DNA of 48,240 nt from Betaproteobacteria bacterium (GTDB lineage Bacteria > Pseudomonadota > Gammaproteobacteria > Burkholderiales > Burkholderiaceae_E). Shown one piece after another: positions 1-22,237 of the stretch (position 1 is its first letter; each line of letters opens with the position of its first letter). The DNA is taken from contig VGHA01000015.1 in assembly GCA_016868375.1 (NCBI GenBank), positions 1 through 48,240 on the forward strand. Reading direction: 5' to 3'. The notes beneath the pieces were generated by a model. The model was not told the DNA's origin. It ran no database searches and worked only from the letters and a program-made list of their open reading frames with translations. Position numbers and translations under genes: made by a program.

Positions 1-483
<483 letters not shown>

Positions 484-8016: not shown

Positions 8017-8823
8017 TCAGCCAAACAGCCGCGCAAGCGCCGCGCCGGGATCCGGCGCACGCATGAAGGCCTCTCCCACCAGAAACGCGCCCACACCCGC
8101 CTCACGCATCCGTGTGACATCAGCGGGACCCAGGATGCCGCTCTCAGTGACCACCAGCCGGTCTTGCGGCATCTGATCCAGCAGGCCGATCGTGGTGTCC
8201 AGAGACACTTCGAATGTGCGCAGATTTCGGTTGTTGATTCCGATAAGCGGCGTGCGCAGGGTGAGCGCGCGCGCAAGCTCCGCTGCGTCATGCACCTCAA
8301 CGAGCACATCCATGCCCAGTTGCTGCGCACACGCCTCGAGCTCATGCAGTTGAGCGTCCGACAAGGCAGCGGCGATCAGCAGAATGCAGTCAGCGCCCCA
8401 GGTTCTAGCCTCAATCACCTGCCAGGCATCGACCACGAAATCCTTCCGCAGCACGGGCAGCGAACAGGCTGCGCGCGCCTCGCGCAGATGAGCGGCCGCC
8501 CCCTGAAAAAACTGCTCATCGGTCAGCACCGACAGGCACGCCGCACCACCACGCTGGTAGCTGGCGGCGATCGAAGCGGGTTCAAACGGGTCACGAAGCA
8601 AGCCCTTGCTTGGGCTTGCGCGCTTGACTTCAGCAATGACCGCAGGGCGACCGGCATTCACCGTGTCGCGCAGCGCCCGGGCAAAGCCCCGCGGCGCTAA
8701 CGGATGACCGAGCGTGAGCGTGTCATTCGCCTCGGCCTGAAGATGGGCCATGGAACGCGCAGCTTGCGCGCGCGCCACCTCGTCGGTTTTTACCGCGAGA
8801 ATTCGCTGCAGGATATCGCTCAT
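8017..8823 (-). CDS. trpC: Indole-3-glycerol phosphate synthase TrpC
   Basis: TIM-barrel enzyme of 268 residues that closes the indole ring of carboxyphenylaminodeoxyribulose phosphate during tryptophan synthesis. The signature [13 protein letters not shown] contains the catalytic lysine. [24 protein letters not shown] and VTESGI follow in the family order. It lies 38 bases downstream of trpD on the same strand and is very probably cotranscribed with it. The gene is monofunctional, with no fused TrpF. Confidence 0.96.
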
Positions 8824-8861: not shown

Positions 8862-9893
8862 TCAGCCGGCGAGCCGGCGGGTGGTCTGAACCCATTGATC
8901 AAGCTTGGCCCGCGCAGCGCCGCTTGCGATGGTTTGGCGAGCCAGTGCAATACCGTCTCCGATTGTGGGTGCCAGATCAGCGGCGTAGAGCGCGGCACCG
9001 GAATTGAGGGTGACGATTTCACGCGGCGTGCCCGGAATGTTGTTGAGCGCTTCAAGCACCATGTCCCGAGACTCGAGTGCGTCAGCCACCTTCAGGCCGC
9101 GATTACTCACCATCGACAAGCCGTAGTCTTCGGGGTGGATGTCATATTCGCGCACCTGGCCATTTCGCAGCTCGCCGACCATCGTGGCGGCACCCAGCGA
9201 TATTTCATCCATACCATCCTGGCCATACACCACCAGCGCATGGCGCGCGCCGAGCTTCTCCATGACGCGAACCTGAATTCCCACCAGATCGGGATGAAAC
9301 ACGCCCATCAAAATGTTGGGCGCATCAGCGGGATTGGTGAGCGGGCCCAGGATGTTGAAGATGGTTCGCACGCCCAGTTCGCGACGCACCGGAACGACGT
9401 TTTTCATCGCTGGATGGTGATTGGGCGCAAACATGAAGCCCAAATTGGTTTCGCGGATGCATTGCGCGACCTGCTCGGGGCTCAGCATGATATTCGCCCC
9501 AAGCGCCTCGAGCACATCGGCGCTGCCCGATTTCGACGATACGCCGCGGTTGCCGTGCTTGGCGACCGTTGCCCCAGCGGCAGCGGCAACAAATGACGAC
9601 GCTGTCGAAATGTTGAAGGTATGGGATGAATCGCCGCCTGTTCCCACGACATCGACGAAATGAGGGCCCCCATCGACCACCACCTTGTTGGCGAATTCAC
9701 GCATCACCTGCGCAGCCGCGGTGATTTCGCCAATGGTTTCCTTCTTGACGCGCAGGCCCATCAAAATGGCCGCAGCGATCACATGCGACATCTCGCCTCG
9801 CATGATCATTCGCATCAGGGCCAGCATTTCGTCGTGGAAAATTTCGCGATGCTCGATGGTGCGCTGAAGCGCTTCCTGAGGTGTGATCGGCAT
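8862..9893 (-). CDS. trpD: Anthranilate phosphoribosyltransferase TrpD
   Basis: Enzyme of 343 residues joining anthranilate to phosphoribosyl pyrophosphate. The PRPP-binding motif [15 protein letters not shown] and the glycine/serine segment [15 protein letters not shown] are intact. Two ATGs are possible, encoding M-I-M. I chose the second because GGAG lies nine bases before it but only three before the first. trpE and trpG, which precede trpD in many relatives, are absent. Instead a putative tryptophan leader peptide with alternative hairpins lies immediately upstream. Confidence 0.95.
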
Positions 9894-9932
9894 GATCATC
9901 GACTCCGAATTCGAAAAAGGGGTAAGACATTC

Positions 9933-9981
9933 AGCGCCAGGAACGAATCTGGCGCTTGAGGCAGACGGGATGGCGCCAGAT
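9933..9981 (-). promoter_or_regulatory. Mutually exclusive hairpins between trp leader peptide and trpD
   Basis: Two perfect stems share one strand. On the transcript, ATCTGGCGC (9973-9981) can pair with GCGCCAGAT (9947-9955). Alternatively AGCGCCAG (9949-9956) can pair with CTGGCGCT (9933-9940) across an eight-base loop. The tryptophan codons of the upstream leader also lie in CTGGCGC repeats that could pair with the same GCGCCAG segment. This is the logic of trp attenuation. The downstream T-tract (TTACCCCTTTTT) is separated from the second stem by several bases, so simple intrinsic termination is not assured. Confidence 0.55.
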
Positions 9982-10001
9982 CGCGGGCGCGCGCGGGGGT
10001 G

Positions 10002-10085
10002 TCAGGCGGCAGGCTTGCGCCAGCGCCAGCGAAACGCGGAGACGAGCAGGACGCTCGAGACGGCAGGGGTAGGCAGGACACGCAT
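10002..10085 (-). CDS. Putative Trp-rich leader peptide (trpL-like), probably leaderless
   Basis: A 27-codon reading frame precedes trpD. It encodes a peptide ending in FRWRWRKPAA, with tryptophan codons at 10026-10028 and 10020-10022 (codons 20 and 22), then TGA. No Shine-Dalgarno sequence is visible. The ATG is only six bases after a -10-like TACAAT, so the transcript may begin at the AUG itself. Leaderless trp leader transcripts are known in Sinorhizobium meliloti. Its position, Trp codons and downstream alternative stems all point to attenuation of trpDC, but expression is unproven. Confidence 0.55.
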   Translation of the reverse strand: MRVLPTPAVSSVLLVSAFRWRWRKPAA

Positions 10086-10091
10086 CTTGCT

Positions 10092-10097
10092 ATTGTA
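10092..10097 (-). promoter_or_regulatory. Putative -10 element for trp leader-trpDC
   Basis: TACAAT on the minus strand, six bases before the leader-peptide ATG. No good -35 hexamer is found at 16-18 bases upstream (the sequence there is CGGTAG-like), so the promoter would be weak or activator-dependent. It lies between the end of the nitrile hydratase-like operon (stop at 10115) and trpD, which gives trpDC its own transcription start. Confidence 0.4.
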
Positions 10098-10114
10098 GCG
10101 CGTCCGCCAAGGCG

Positions 10115-10786
10115 CTACCGGCCGGGGGTCACCAGCCCGGTTCCGATCATCGAATCGCGGCTGATGATCTCAGCGAGCGCATCTTCGCCAAGATGGTCGG
10201 TTCCAGAGGGGCGCTCAGGAATGACCAGATAGCGGAGGTCGGCAGTGCTGTCGACCACCCGAATTTCGGTGTCGGCAGGAAGCGATACGCCGAATTCCTC
10301 AAGCACCACGCGGGGTTCCCGCACCACCCGCGCGCGGTATTCACGGCTCTTATACCAGGCAGGCGGGATGCCCAGGATCATTCTCGGGTAACACGAGCAC
10401 AGCGTGCACACGACAACATGGTGCACCCCGCTCCCGTTCTCGAGCACCTGGAGCGCTGGCGTGTTGGCGACATCGATGCCGAGCTGGGTGATGGCGGGCT
10501 TGGGATCGGAAAGCAGTTTCTCGCGGAATACAGGGTCGGTCCAGGCCTTGGCCACGATTCGGGAACCCATGGCGGGCGTGCGCGATTCCTGTTTTTCAAT
10601 CTGGCGCTGGACATCGGCAGCGCTGAAAACCCCGGCCTCGATCAGCAGCTCGCGCAGGGCCTGCTCGAGCAGGTGGAACTCGGTGACGGTGTCGTGGTCT
10701 TCGACGGGCGCATGCGGATGCGAGTGATCATCGTGGTCATGGTCATGATCATCATGATCGTGGTCATGGTCGTGCGCGGCAGTCAT
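10115..10786 (-). CDS. Nitrile hydratase alpha / thiocyanate hydrolase gamma-like subunit, His-rich N-terminus
   Basis: Protein of 223 residues with the metal-binding motif VCTLCSC (Cys127, Cys130, Cys132). The threonine in CTLCSC marks the cobalt type. The following PPAWYKSREYRARVVREPR is a nitrile hydratase alpha signature. Residues 5-25 are an unusual His/Asp stretch with ten histidines, plausibly a metal-loading tail. It is the last gene of a seven-gene operon and overlaps the preceding subunit by four bases. With the beta part split in two, the arrangement matches thiocyanate hydrolase (scnB-scnA-scnC order) or toyocamycin nitrile hydratase, so the substrate is open. Confidence 0.85.
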   Translation of the reverse strand: MTAAHDHDHDHDDHDHDHDDHSHPHAPVEDHDTVTEFHLLEQALRELLIEAGVFSAADVQRQIEKQESRTPAMGSRIVAKAWTDPVFREKLLSDPKPAITQLGIDVANTPALQVLENGSGVHHVVVCTLCSCYPRMILGIPPAWYKSREYRARVVREPRVVLEEFGVSLPADTEIRVVDSTADLRYLVIPERPSGTDHLGEDALAEIISRDSMIGTGLVTPGR

Positions 10787-11082
10787 TGACGATCTCCCAT
10801 GGCTGCGTCATCTGCGGGCGCCAGCCAGTGTTCATAAAGGTCTGCTTCCAGGGTGTCGCGGGGGAATGGGTAGTCGTCCCAGAGATCTGCCTGACGGAAG
10901 CGAACGCGATAAAGCCTTCGAAGTGGCAACCCCGGCTTGTGATATGCGAGGGTTTCGGGGTTCCGCCAAGCGCCCGCCTCGCTGACGACCTCGCCGACTT
11001 TTCCCTTGAGGTAGACCGGGGTGCGGCAATGGCCGAAGATGGCGTGATCCAGCACCCGAACCAGCATTCCATCGGTAAACAT
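10783..11082 (-). CDS. Nitrile hydratase beta C-terminal-domain-like subunit (thiocyanate hydrolase alpha-like)
   Basis: A 99-residue protein equal to the C-terminal SH3-like barrel of nitrile hydratase beta. Typical features are F-x-D-G-M-x-V near the N-terminus, the GHCRTPVYLKGKVGEVV segment, the Y-H-K-P-G-L-P-x-R-x-L-Y-R-V-R-F strand and the final L-x-x-D-L-Y-E-H-W-L. In standard nitrile hydratase this is the second half of one ~220-residue chain; here it is a separate gene. It starts two bases after the preceding subunit and overlaps the alpha-type gene by four bases, implying coupled translation and complex assembly. Confidence 0.85.
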   Translation of the reverse strand: MFTDGMLVRVLDHAIFGHCRTPVYLKGKVGEVVSEAGAWRNPETLAYHKPGLPLRRLYRVRFRQADLWDDYPFPRDTLEADLYEHWLAPADDAAMGDRQ

Positions 11083-11084
11083 GA

Positions 11085-11435
11085 TTACTGCCCCTCGGCT
11101 GCGCGGCGCTCGCGGATGACCTGCAGTCGCGCCTCGATCTGCGCATCGGTGAGAACCGACTGCTCAACCAGCAACTGGCGGATCGCCTTGAGCCACCGGT
11201 CGTAGTAGGGCAGATTTTCATAATCGAGCTTCGAATAGTTCTCGACCGCGCGACGAAGCGCATCGACCTTGAATGCAGCGCATCCAGGGTGCGTGAGCAG
11301 CATCAGCATGGCATCCACCCGCATCTCGAACAGGGTGCGGGGATGCTCGTGCCGATCGATCAGGCCCAGCTCGAGCCCGCCCAGATCATGCTGGCGACGG
11401 GAAGCTTCTCCGGTGATGGGGTCCTGTGAAGTCAT
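11085..11435 (-). CDS. Nitrile hydratase beta N-terminal-domain-like subunit (thiocyanate hydrolase beta-like)
   Basis: A 116-residue protein corresponding to the N-terminal helical half of nitrile hydratase beta. It carries HDLGGLELG near the N-terminus, then FEMRVDAML, LRRAVENY and YYDRWLKAIRQLLVEQSVLT, which parallels the beta-subunit YYEHWL...LLVEKGVLT region. Nitrile hydratase activator proteins (P14K type) share this fold, so an accessory role is an alternative. The separate C-terminal half next door favours a structural subunit. Its ATG overlaps the stop of the ABC ATPase by four bases. Confidence 0.78.
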   Translation of the reverse strand: MTSQDPITGEASRRQHDLGGLELGLIDRHEHPRTLFEMRVDAMLMLLTHPGCAAFKVDALRRAVENYSKLDYENLPYYDRWLKAIRQLLVEQSVLTDAQIEARLQVIRERRAAEGQ

Positions 11436-18788: not shown

Positions 18789-19997
18789 TTACACCACGCC
18801 CTGTTCGCGCAACGCGGCGATGCCCGCCTCGTCGTAGCCAACACCCTTCAAAATTTCATCGGTGTGCTCGCCCCAACCCGGCGCGGTGCGAACGACGTCG
18901 GCGGGTGTGCGCGACAGCGCGACGGGCTGGGTGAGGAAGTGGCGCATCGGACCCTGGGCGCTCTCAACTGACTTGACCACGCCCAGGTGTTTGATCTGCA
19001 CGTCATCGAACATTTGCGGAATCGTATAAACCGGACCGGCAGGTACGCCTGCTTCATTGAGCGCATCCACCCAGTACGCCACCGGACGGGTACGAAAGAT
19101 TTCGTTGATGATCGCGTCGCAGCGTTCGCGGTTTTTCACGCGCAGCTTTTCGGTGGAAAGCTCGGGGTCATTGATCCACTCAGGCTTGCCAAGCAGGTTA
19201 CACAGCCGGATCCAGCTGCCATTGCCCGAGGCGCCAAGATTGAAGTGACCGTCGGAGGCCTCGAACAGCCCCATTGGCGCGCTGGTGGGATGCGAATTGC
19301 CCACCTGCACCGGCACGTCGTTATCGTTGAGATAGCGCGCTGCCTGGAAGTCCATCATGGCAATCATGCTGTGCAGCAGTGAGGCGTGAACCCACTGACC
19401 CTGCCCGGACTGCTGACGTTCAAGCAGCGCCACCATGATTCCGATTGACGCATACAGCCCGGTGCTGGAGTCGGCCACCGCCAGACCTGCACGCACGGGA
19501 CCCTGCCCCGGAAAACCGGTGACGGACATGATGCCGCCCATGCCCTGGGCGATCTGATCAAAGCCTGGGCGCTCGGCATACGGGCCGTCCTGGCCGAAAC
19601 CTGAAATGCTCGCGAGGATGATGCGGGGATTGATTTTCTTCAGGCTTTCGTAATCCAACCCCAGCCGCGCCTTGACATCAGGCCGCCAGTTTTCCACCAC
19701 CACGTCGGCCTGTTTGATCAGCCGCTCGAGCAGCTGCATGGCGCCGGGCTTCTTCATGTTGAGCGTAAGCGACCGCTTGTTGCGGTTGAGGTTTTGGAAG
19801 TCGCCGCCCATCCGGTCTGCGGCAAACATGCCCTCGTTGGGGTCAACGCCTTTGGGCGGCTCAATTCGAATGACGTCCGCGCCAAAGTCAGCCAGCATTC
19901 GGACGCAGGTGGGGCCGGCTCGGACCCGCGAAAAATCAAGCACCCGGACACCCCGGAGCGCACCGCTTGCGTGAATGGGCTGGCCGATTGTGTTCAT
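18789..19997 (-). CDS. CaiB/BaiF family (class III) CoA-transferase
   Basis: Protein of 402 residues. The N-terminal GVRVLDFSRVRAGPTCVRMLADFGADVIRIE is the class III signature. The catalytic aspartate is in AGLAVADSSTG. Later segments include GQGQWVHASLLHSM. Start: ATG 19997 has AGGAG five bases upstream; the longer frame reaches into the promoter region and is rejected. First gene of the leftward acyl-CoA operon. It probably activates the acid substrate by moving CoA from succinyl-CoA or a similar donor. Confidence 0.92.
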   Translation of the reverse strand: MNTIGQPIHASGALRGVRVLDFSRVRAGPTCVRMLADFGADVIRIEPPKGVDPNEGMFAADRMGGDFQNLNRNKRSLTLNMKKPGAMQLLERLIKQADVVVENWRPDVKARLGLDYESLKKINPRIILASISGFGQDGPYAERPGFDQIAQGMGGIMSVTGFPGQGPVRAGLAVADSSTGLYASIGIMVALLERQQSGQGQWVHASLLHSMIAMMDFQAARYLNDNDVPVQVGNSHPTSAPMGLFEASDGHFNLGASGNGSWIRLCNLLGKPEWINDPELSTEKLRVKNRERCDAIINEIFRTRPVAYWVDALNEAGVPAGPVYTIPQMFDDVQIKHLGVVKSVESAQGPMRHFLTQPVALSRTPADVVRTAPGWGEHTDEILKGVGYDEAGIAALREQGVV

Positions 19998-20098
19998 GTT
20001 TTCTCCTGGAGACGCCATCTGAAACGGGCTGATCACCCGAACCTGAACCCCTGCGGGTCGCCCCGGCAGCGCACTGCTCAAATATCAAAAGCCCGCTT

Positions 20099-20128
20099 TT
20101 GTATACCGATGGAACTTTAGCGTATAAC
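20099..20128 (+). promoter_or_regulatory. Promoter/operator candidate for the GntR gene and the divergent CoA-transferase operon
   Basis: A -35-like TTGTAT (20099-20104), an 18-base spacer and a -10-like TATAAC (20123-20128) point toward the GntR gene. The palindrome GTATAC (20101-20106) and a related GTATAA (20122-20127) look like half-sites of the GTATAC-type operators used by FCD-class GntR regulators. On the other strand the same bases can serve the CoA-transferase operon. Binding is inferred, not shown. Confidence 0.4.
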
Positions 20129-20188
20129 CTACCCGAGATTCGAATTCCCCTCATTGAACGTTCCAGGATCTTTTTTCGGACCCCTCCA

Positions 20189-20848
20189 TTGAAGGCGAGT
20201 GACACGATCCGACAGGCCATCGAGCGGGCCGTACAGACCGGAGAACTGCAGCCAGGCGACCCGGTCGATGAGGCTGCGCTGGCCGCCGCCCATTCGGTAT
20301 CGCGGACGCCGGTGCGCGAAGCAATCCTGCAGCTGCAGGCGCAGGGGCTGCTTGCCACCACCCCGCGGGGTGGTGCAGCGGTTGCGAAGGTGGACATCCA
20401 GCGCCTGTTCGCGATCTGGGAGGTGCTGGCCGAGCTGGAAAGCCTGTGCGCGCAGCTCGCCTGCGAGCGAATGACCGATGACGAACGTGAGCAGCTTGCC
20501 CTGCTGCACCGCAGGGCTGCCGCGGTGGTCAAAAAAGGCGACCGCGAAGGATGGCAGGAGGCCAACCAGTCATTTCATGATTGCCTGTACCGGGGTGCGC
20601 GCAATCCGTATCTGCGCGAAGAGATCCTTCGCGCACGTACTCTCACCGGTGCGTATCGCAAGCACGCGTTTGGCGCTCTGGGCGACCTGGGGTCGTCGTA
20701 TGCGCAGCACGGGGCGCTGCTCGCGGCCATCACGCAGCGCAATGTCGACGATGTCCGTTATCTGATGCGGCTGCACATGACACCCGGCCAGGGCATCCGC
20801 AGCGTCAATGACGTGCTGGTGAACCTGCCTCGCGAGCTGTTGGTGTGA
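20189..20848 (+). CDS. GntR-family transcriptional regulator (FCD class)
   Basis: Winged-helix regulator of about 220 residues. The N-terminal HTH is ASDTIRQAIERAVQTGELQPG through SVSRTPVREAILQLQAQGLL, followed by an FCD ligand domain with FHDCLYRGARNPYL. I use TTG 20189 as start, because the region just before it contains promoter-like sequence and the protein then begins at the family's first helix; the true start is uncertain. Divergent from the CoA-transferase operon, which it most likely controls. Its 3' end overlaps the convergent gph gene by 44 bases. Confidence 0.85.
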   Translation: MKASDTIRQAIERAVQTGELQPGDPVDEAALAAAHSVSRTPVREAILQLQAQGLLATTPRGGAAVAKVDIQRLFAIWEVLAELESLCAQLACERMTDDEREQLALLHRRAAAVVKKGDREGWQEANQSFHDCLYRGARNPYLREEILRARTLTGAYRKHAFGALGDLGSSYAQHGALLAAITQRNVDDVRYLMRLHMTPGQGIRSVNDVLVNLPRELLV

Positions 20849-21536
20849 TCACATCGATTAACGACGCTGCGTGTTCGAGCGACTCGATTACCGCATCGGC
20901 ATCAAGTTCGGCGATGCTGCGGCCTTCGTTGTAGCCATAGGGCAGCACAAACACCGGCATCCCCGCAGCGCGCGCGGCCAGCGCGTCGTTGATTGAATCG
21001 CCAATCATGGCGGCCTGTTGGGGCGCAATACCAAACCCTTCGCAGGCGTGCAGAAGCTGCGCGGGGTCGGGTTTCTTGCGCGGCAGCGAGTCACCGCCAA
21101 TGATCAGATCGAACGAAGACGAGAGCCCGGTCCGCTCAAGCAGTGGCAGCGTGAAGGCCATCGGTTTGTTGGTAACGCAGGCAAGCCCCAGACCACCCGC
21201 TTTCATGGCTGCCAGCCCCTCGCGTACCCCGGGGTAGAGGCGGGCGCTTACCCCATTTTCGCGCGCATAGTGATGCCTGAATATCGACACCGCGGCAGTG
21301 AGCTGCTCGGGCGCCACCGCACCATCCAGGGTGCCGGTGAGCGCGCGCTGAACCAGTGATTCCGCCCCTTTGCCGACAAAGCTGCGCATCTGTTCCACGG
21401 GCCGGGCTGGAAGGCCGAGTTCAACCAGCATCGCATTGGCCGCGGCAGCCAGATCGTCAATCGTGTCGAGGAGCGTTCCGTCGAGATCGATGAGCACCGC
21501 TCGAGCCGCCCAACGGCGCGACGCCGGTGCCGTCAT
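20805..21536 (-). CDS. gph: Phosphoglycolate phosphatase (HAD family)
   Basis: HAD-superfamily hydrolase of 243 residues with nucleophile motif [11 protein letters not shown], motif II in CVTNKP, lysine motif in RKKPDPAQL and the acidic motif [15 protein letters not shown]. It removes phosphate from 2-phosphoglycolate formed by repair of oxidised DNA ends or oxygenase activity. It overlaps rpe by four bases on the same strand, the conserved rpe-gph pairing of proteobacteria. Confidence 0.93.
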
Positions 21537-22237
21537 CCCGGTAACCCCGCGCTGGCCAGCGCTTCGCGTAGCCGACCCATGACGCCCCGATAACCCCGAT
21601 CGGGGTCGGGGGCTCCAAACACTGCGGACCCTGCGACAAAGGTATCGGCCCCCGCTTCGGCCACGCGGGCAATGTTGTCGACCTTGATGCCGCCATCCAC
21701 CTCAAGCCAGATTGGATTGCCGCCCGCTGCGACATGCGCGTCGATGCGGGCACGAACTGACCTGAGTTTGGCGAGCGTGGCTTCAATGAAACTCTGCCCA
21801 CCGTATCCCGGATTCACAGACATCAGGAGCACGAGGTCGAGCCGATCCATGACGTGGTCGAGGTGGTGTAGCGGCGTGGCGGGGTTGAGTACCAGACCTG
21901 CCTTGCAGCCGTTATCGCGGATCAGTTGCAGCGTCCGATCAACATGATCCGAGGCTTCGGGGTGGAAGGTGATCAGCGATGCACCCGCTTTTGCAAAATC
22001 GATCGCCAGCCGGTCGACGGGCCGCACCATCAGGTGGACGTCGATGGGAAGTTTGACATGCGGGCGAATCGCCTCGCAGACCATCGGACCGATCGTAAGG
22101 TTAGGGACGTAATGGTTGTCCATCACATCGAAGTGGATCAGGTCGGCGCCAGCCGCCTCGACTGCGCGCACCTCCTCGCCCAGTCGGGCGAAGTCGGCTG
22201 ACAGAATGCTGGGAGCGATACGAAATGAACGGGTCAT
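21533..22237 (-). CDS. rpe: Ribulose-phosphate 3-epimerase
   Basis: TIM-barrel epimerase of 234 residues interconverting ribulose 5-phosphate and xylulose 5-phosphate. [15 protein letters not shown], the metal-binding [23 protein letters not shown] and the C-terminal [11 protein letters not shown] with AGSAVFG phosphate loop are all present. ATGA overlap with gph downstream. It diverges from apaG. Confidence 0.97.

Follow-up and report, generated by a model that had tools for sequence, protein, structure and literature searches.

A predicted leaderless trp leader before trpDC in a betaproteobacterium apparently lacking trpE and trpG

The trpDC locus

The window (the whole stretch of DNA that was analysed, 48,240 nucleotides of contig VGHA01000015.1 from a Betaproteobacteria bacterium) carries trpD and trpC on its minus strand. 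A short frame with Trp codons lies before trpD. A nitrile hydratase alpha-like gene is found directly upstream of this leader, as it also is in two other genomes of the genus, G004 and G001 (PF02979 over cut-off in both). The genus is represented by five genomes, G000 to G004, with G000 being the genome of the window. The features of the locus are as follows.

8017..8823, minus strand: trpC, indole-3-glycerol phosphate synthase (NF001373, 404 bits, cut-off 317)
8862..9899, minus strand: trpD, anthranilate phosphoribosyltransferase (TIGR01245, 404 bits, cut-off 199)
9891..9907, minus strand: trpD ribosome site in the sequence, CGGAGTC with GGAG, and two in-frame ATG (9899 and 9893)
10002..10085, minus strand: leader frame MRVLPTPAVSSVLLVSAFRWRWRKPAA in the sequence, 27 codons plus stop; equal length in G004 and G001
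10002..10016, minus strand: K-P-A-A-stop after the Trp codons, present in 11 of 11 leaders
10020..10028, minus strand: Trp-Arg-Trp, codons 20-22 (TGG CGC TGG), in the sequence and in relatives
10092..10097, minus strand: -10 box TACAAT in the sequence; comparable box in 11 of 11 leaders
10115..10786, minus strand: nitrile hydratase alpha-like gene (PF02979 over cut-off), directly upstream of the leader

Leader frame and -10 box

The leader ATG is located at 10085-10083 and the stop at 10004-10002; GCGCTACAATAGCAAGATG is the opening of the frame, and Trp is encoded at codons 20 and 22. The frame is of the trpL type: it is short, lies upstream of trp genes and has no fewer than two Trp codons towards its end. 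The -10 box (10097-10092) is followed by AGCAAG and then by the ATG, a spacing of six bases. Shine-Dalgarno-like sequences (GGAG, GAGG or AGGA) were sought before the ATG and are absent. The earlier note had described this frame, this box and the missing Shine-Dalgarno site from the sequence of the window, and all three are confirmed on the minus strand.

A consensus scan of positions 9700-10400 returned neither a sigma-70 promoter nor a terminator. The sequence is poor in the place expected for a -35 box, and that place overlaps the final part of the nitrile hydratase gene, the stop of which is 29 nt before the leader ATG. Because of this overlap, a longer transcript that is not leaderless may also be formed by read-through. 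No Rfam family (release 15) reaches its gathering score at the leader, and 15 loci of relatives gave only rRNA matches. The reading of the frame as a leaderless trp leader of trpDC is nevertheless well supported by comparison. Leaderless initiation is proposed chiefly because a -10-like box lies 5-7 nt before the start in all 11 leaders described below.

Leaders in relatives

A search for TrpD gave a match in 39 of 41 genomes; G003, which belongs to the same genus and is 90% complete, had none. G004 (MCVHPYSVGQSVLLASAHCWRWRKPAA) and G001 (MRVRPSFVGQSPLLSSARCWRWRKPAA) contain 27-codon frames before trpD, again with TACAAT six bases before the ATG. Pairwise, the peptides of G000, G004 and G001 show 7 to 10 differences in 27 residues, none of them from residue 20 onwards, and the ending W-R-W-R-K-P-A-A plus stop is identical in the three. 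G002 has an intact trpG, and a leader ending in W-H-W-R-K-P-A-A is located 138 nt before it; this leader has several in-frame ATGs, and the start was taken as the one six bases after a TACAAT box.

An exact 27-base pattern for W-x-W-R-K-P-A-A-stop was used as a search key. With the window's genome counted, it is found in 8 of 74 genomes of the family (none with the reversed pattern as control) and in 3 of 399 sampled genomes of the order (control 1). The leader of G081 was located by reading upstream of trpG and adds to the pattern matches. In total there are 11 leaders in four genera and three families, eight before trpG and three before trpD; seven of the trpG leaders fall in three other genera. 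They share the ending W-R/H-W-R-K/Q-P-A-A-stop, in which K is changed to Q once and synonymous changes occur in G081 and G454. For six of the 11 the ending itself served as the search key, which makes its invariance there a matter of construction; the -10 spacing is not biased in this way. A hexamer matching TATAAT in at least five of six positions is present 5-7 nt before the start in all 11 leaders (the start is GTG in G173). A -10 box at this distance, together with the lack of a Shine-Dalgarno site, is what would be expected of a leaderless trpL of the Sinorhizobium meliloti type. In the sequences around the leaders, leaders included, such a box precedes 16 of 6289 ATG or GTG triplets.

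The 12 genomes of genus g15 vary: five have the leader, six have trpG without it, and one has no trpG over cut-off. Because half of them keep trpG without a leader, the leader is, on this comparison, dispensable. A description of this class of 11 leaders was not found in the open-access literature that was searched, from which the main comparative papers on trp attenuators seem to be absent. Comparative work on trp attenuators by Vitreschak, and by Merino and Yanofsky, may list related leaders.

Other trp leaders of the order

A frame with W-P-W-R, such as MFLNKKRSLSSIDRGAWPWRRWSR in Burkholderia and relatives, is present in 45 of 80 distinct trpE upstream regions compared in Burkholderiales. 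These are likewise Trp leader frames of the same order, but the peptide is a different one and none of the 45 has a box matching TATAAT at five of six positions 5-7 nt before its start. The Burkholderia leader L013 also has a normal terminator, a hairpin with TTTTTT. Judged by these regions, Trp leaders before trp genes are normal in Burkholderiales, and it is the close -10 box which distinguishes the present type. A weaker box, TACACT or TAAACT, is found 6-7 nt before the ATG in four of the 45 (L048, L050, L054 and L076, in Comamonadaceae, Rhodoferax and Curvibacter records), and these trp leaders may be leaderless or nearly leaderless too. Frames such as MKSLQPSPLLWSPLTAALRWWR precede trpG in four loci of Pandoraea, and there TACAAT stands ten bases ahead of the ATG.

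Loss of trpE and trpG

In G002, trpE stands directly before a gene whose counterpart in the window (85% identity over 405 residues) is CoA-transferase-like, and trpG stands between the leader and trpD. The window has no trpG at this place, and at the expected trpE site it has a GntR-like gene.

18789-20081, minus strand: CoA-transferase-like gene (match below NCBIfam cut-off)
20082..20804, strand not applicable: expected trpE site between gph and the CoA-transferase-like gene, by comparison with G002; GntR-like gene instead
20099-20848, plus strand: GntR-like regulator gene (match below NCBIfam cut-off)
20805-21536, minus strand: gph, flank of the missing trpE
21533-22237, minus strand: rpe, flank of the missing trpE

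Remnants of trpE and trpG were sought in the window by tblastn and none was found (best E 0.65 and 0.29, respectively). Whole-genome searches gave no TrpE-type match in G000, G001, G003 and G004, no chorismate-binding domain of the TrpE/PabB type (PF00425) and no TrpG over cut-off, although weaker amidotransferase matches are present. G001 is only 78% and G003 only 90% complete, and absences from these two alone are weak. The rest of the pathway is represented: trpF, trpB and trpA are present in G000, and TrpB is over cut-off in G000, G002, G003 and G004 (not in the 78% complete G001). Misassembly or an incomplete genome is an unlikely cause of the missing trpE, as the window holds the flanking genes together and trpE is missing from four of the genus's five genomes.

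The trpCD genes and three genes beyond trpC are common to the window, G002 and G004. Because the neighbours are shared with G002, where both genes stand, the comparison indicates that trpE and trpG were lost in place from the same locus, while the leader, trpD and trpC stayed. The earlier note had considered it unusual that the leader controls trpDC and not trpE. The arrangement itself is borne out; it is explained by this loss, and elsewhere the leader precedes trpGDC. The genus would thereby offer a natural case in which a Trp-sensing leader has outlived the enzyme that it classically guards, and control of the first step cannot be its purpose there.

Two further observations concern these genes. 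A TATAGT box lies inside 7 of the 11 gph ends found in 30 trpE loci of relatives; it is absent from the window (20805-20900, minus strand), where trpE is missing. No PabB was found in G000, G001, G003 and G004 either, so their p-aminobenzoate for folate would also need another source.

Source of anthranilate

The pathway that remains probably salvages anthranilate, either taken up or made from kynurenine. Kynureninase is over cut-off in G000, G001, G003 and G004 and was not found in G002, the genome with TrpE (loci L212-L217). The kynU gene is on another contig than trpDC; in G000, G001 and G003 it is beside a LysR-like gene and not in a kynABU cluster. Tryptophan 2,3-dioxygenase was found in G000 and G003 but not in G001, G002 or G004. 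Kynurenine salvage was not adopted as a firm explanation: the genomes number only five, and of the four that carry kynureninase, two possess tryptophan 2,3-dioxygenase as well.

Passages of PMC3937554 describe a Trp pathway that lacks anthranilate synthase and is fed by kynurenine in Chlamydia caviae and relatives; in C. felis they report a potential trpL frame with tandem Trp codons, situated in the gap that precedes the first biosynthetic gene still present. C. caviae, C. felis and C. pecorum resemble the present genus in having kept trpDCFBA, lost anthranilate synthase and possessing kynureninase. They differ in that kynU belongs to the trp operon in these Chlamydia and is outside it here, and in that G000 and G003 carry tryptophan 2,3-dioxygenase, so that breakdown of their own Trp to kynurenine, which salvage of the C. 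caviae type would lack, is expected in these two. A further difference is that the present leader type also precedes intact trpG in relatives.

Proposed attenuation of trpDC

We consider it fairly probable that the locus combines a leaderless trp leader with an attenuator that responds to Trp through the ribosome, and that it descends from a trpL-trpG-trpD-trpC unit. Trp-dependent attenuation of trpDC itself is likely. RNA polymerase would start at or next to the leader AUG, and a 70S ribosome would initiate on this AUG. When charged tRNA-Trp is low, the ribosome would stall at the W-R-W codons and transcription into trpDC would be favoured; when Trp is sufficient, it would reach the stop codon and transcription would end early. 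The frame, the -10 spacing, the Trp codons, the kept ending, the location ahead of trpD and the lack of trpE and trpG at their expected places can be read from the sequences and their comparison. What we infer is where the 5' end lies, that the ribosome stalls, which sign the response has and by what mode transcription stops.

The leaderless reading has a precedent because the trpL transcript of S. meliloti begins with the ATG. The earlier note had given this as known, and passages of PMC7298713 state it. According to the same passages, only trpE(G) of the three trp operons of S. meliloti is attenuated, and the trpDC mRNA is destabilised in trans by rnTrpL. The S. meliloti trpL-trpE(G) attenuator (rnTrpL, peTrpL) is thus described there as a leaderless trp leader frame like the present one; here, the leader stands before trpDC, has 27 codons instead of 14, has no clear terminator and belongs to a betaproteobacterium. 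Another likeness is with trpGDC of Pseudomonas, where the leader is also before trpGDC and separate from trpE. Passages of PMC8297930 report premature 3' ends at trpGDC of P. aeruginosa, beside a potential uORF that begins with GTG, and cite Olekhnovich and Gussin 2001, the title of which is on attenuation of Pseudomonas trpGDC. In the present locus trpG is gone, and those passages of PMC8297930 make no mention of leaderless initiation.

Competing stems after the leader

The RNA between the leader stop and trpD contains the following elements.

9982..10001, minus strand: C-rich block CACCCCCGCGCGCGCCCGCG after the leader stop, by alignment
9973..9981, minus strand: arm 2 of the putative antiterminator, ATCTGGCGC, in the sequence
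9947..9956, minus strand: shared arm 3, AGCGCCAGAT, which pairs with arm 2 (9 bp) or arm 4 (8 bp)
9933..9940, minus strand: arm 4, CTGGCGCT, which forms the 3' half of the putative terminator hairpin; G004 and G001 have a hairpin in the same position
9914..9918, minus strand: run of five T, 14 nt past the 8-bp stem and hence not a normal U-tract

One possible mode of attenuation, which we hold only tentatively, is a switch of the E. coli type, in which a 9-bp 2:3 antiterminator competes with an 8-bp 3:4 intrinsic terminator. The 2:3 stem (ATCTGGCGC, 9981-9973, with GCGCCAGAT, 9955-9947) and the 3:4 stem (AGCGCCAG, 9956-9949, with CTGGCGCT, 9940-9933) are both perfect, and GCGCCAG is common to them. 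Dinucleotide shuffles of the 189-nt leader gave a 9/8 switch in 0 of 2000 cases and any 8/8 switch in 1 of 2000, which places the pair beyond chance in the window. The 3:4 hairpin is found at the same place in G004 and G001, where it is followed by ACUUUCAUU/GCUUUCAUU; in G001 it has 11-12 bp including G-U pairs (-22.4 kcal/mol). One pair in arms 2, 3 and 4 changes jointly, being U-A-U in the window and A-U-A in G001.

Other evidence speaks against this switch. At the co-varying position G004 has U-C-A, which is unpaired, and a perfect switch of at least 6 bp was sought in G004 without success. Because the 2:3 stem shrinks from 9 bp in the window to 6 bp in G001 and about 5 bp in G004, the switch exactly as first drawn is, by this comparison, not conserved. 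The stem arms of the window are absent from the aligned trpG leaders of other genera. Arm 2 begins 20 nt after the leader stop, which is beyond the reach of a ribosome on the stop codon. There is also no U-run: CUUUCAUU follows the 3:4 hairpin in G004 and G001, and in the window a gap of 10 nt separates the 8-bp stem from CCCCTTTTT, with the T-run not directly after the stem.

Equilibrium folds do not display a switch either, and being equilibrium folds they neither prove nor exclude a kinetic one. In the RNA of the window the 2:3 stem is at 0.83-0.97 and the 3:4 stem at no more than 0.11 in all four ribosome states. The 3:4 stem of G001 is at 0.83 in all four states once it is fully out, and the 2:3 stem is transient, reaching up to 0.86 before 3:4 is completed. 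In G004, 2:3 is at 0.39 or less and 3:4 takes values of 0.99, 0.03, 0.95 and 0.34, which is not the order expected for attenuation.

The claim of an attenuator in the earlier note thus stands in part. The leaderless Trp leader before trpDC holds, as do the two perfect competing stems sharing GCGCCAG in the window, and the 3:4 hairpin recurs in both congeners with the trpD arrangement. The note had named relatives without the Trp codons or stems as grounds for refutation: these two congeners keep the Trp codons and neither keeps the 9-bp 2:3 stem. A terminator with a U-run was not found.

Two other lines of structural support were dropped. As a whole, the leader folds with an ordinary energy (z -0.94), and a hairpin of the Trp and K-P-A-A codons as a selected RNA structure was rejected, as 149 to 370 of 1000 synonymous variants (15-37%) fold equally well. 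The synonymous changes in the kept ending of G454 and G081 would fit a constraint on the peptide equally well.

How transcription might stop

A hairpin scan found no U-run terminator in any of the 11 leaders. The best T counts in the 8 nt after a hairpin are 4 in G000, 5 in G004, 5 in G001 and 4 in G173, compared with 7 in the control L013; among the hairpins listed for the other seven leaders, none has at least four T in the following 8 nt. Most likely, transcription in this genus is stopped either at the 3:4 hairpin, as a weak intrinsic terminator, or by Rho at the C-rich region, and we rate the two about equal. For the former, CUUUCAUU after the 3:4 hairpin in G004 and G001 could serve as a weak terminator.

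Termination by Rho under control of the leader peptide is a serious rival to the switch, because a hairpin with a U-run is missing in the other genera and the RNA after the stop is C-rich. It is a possibility no firmer than the switch itself. The C-rich, G-poor RNA past the stop would be the loading region for Rho, and access to it would be set by the position of the ribosome. Leader peptides combined with Rho termination are known. The core GCGCGCCCGCG of the C-rich block recurs by alignment in G004, G001, G018, G074, G075 and G078. For 8 of 11 genomes, the maximal excess of C over G in the 70 nt past the leader ranks among the highest 5% of segments of that length (0.026 in the window), against a background that mixes coding and non-coding DNA. 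However, this excess is ordinary in G001 (0.20), G454 (0.32) and G173 (0.71), and it is not obvious how a ribosome stalled on the Trp codons would block the Rho site.

A wider proposal, which we regard as speculative and somewhat unlikely in its full form, is that the leaderless W-R-W-R-K-P-A-A-stop class controls trpGDC in several genera of Burkholderiales by means other than an intrinsic terminator, Rho being one example, and that in this genus it was kept after both anthranilate synthase subunits had been lost, to sense Trp for a pathway supplied with anthranilate from kynurenine or the environment.

It is quite improbable that the leader is a decaying relic which has regulated nothing useful since the loss of trpE and trpG. 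The pathway is indeed cut at its first step, the -35 region of the window is poor and G003 has no match to TrpD; against this, the frame length, -10 box, Trp codons, ending and stop are intact in three species despite the divergence of their peptides. The least probable reading is translational control, in which the structure of the leader would mask the ribosome site of trpD, or translation of trpD would be coupled to the leader: the site region GAATTCGGAGTCGA (GGATTC... in G001) is unusually well kept in G000, G004 and G001, and the missing U-run would suit such control, but no conserved partner is visible by eye, the leader and trpD frames are 102-108 nt apart in the window, G004 and G001, and sequestration of the site by CTCCG of the window leader was rejected, this motif being absent from the frames of G004 and G001.

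Under the preferred reading of a Trp-responsive attenuator, the 11 predicted leaderless trp leaders, with their near-invariant peptide ending and no U-run terminator, form a defined comparative set. With this set it can be tested by what means attenuation through the ribosome ends transcription in GC-rich bacteria where no intrinsic terminator is obvious, and whether it is the peptide or the RNA of the kept ending that acts.

Other features of the window

Nitrile hydratase-like genes occupy 10115-11435 on the minus strand and adjoin an ABC transporter-like cluster. The N-terminus of the alpha gene product is very His-rich, and the beta gene is seemingly split into two short frames. The alpha product scores 243.9 bits against TIGR01323, just below the cut-off of 249.85, and also scores, below cut-off, against thiocyanate hydrolase gamma. 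Other genes were named by eye and not by family search; we take them to be YhdH-like, NTP-transferase-like, M61-like, LysR-like, ABC transporter, permease and binding-protein genes. The contig begins inside a 16S rRNA gene (window positions 1-483, minus strand), and the contigs that carry these genes in G002 and G004 (L154 and L156; positions 1-134) likewise begin inside a 16S rRNA gene.
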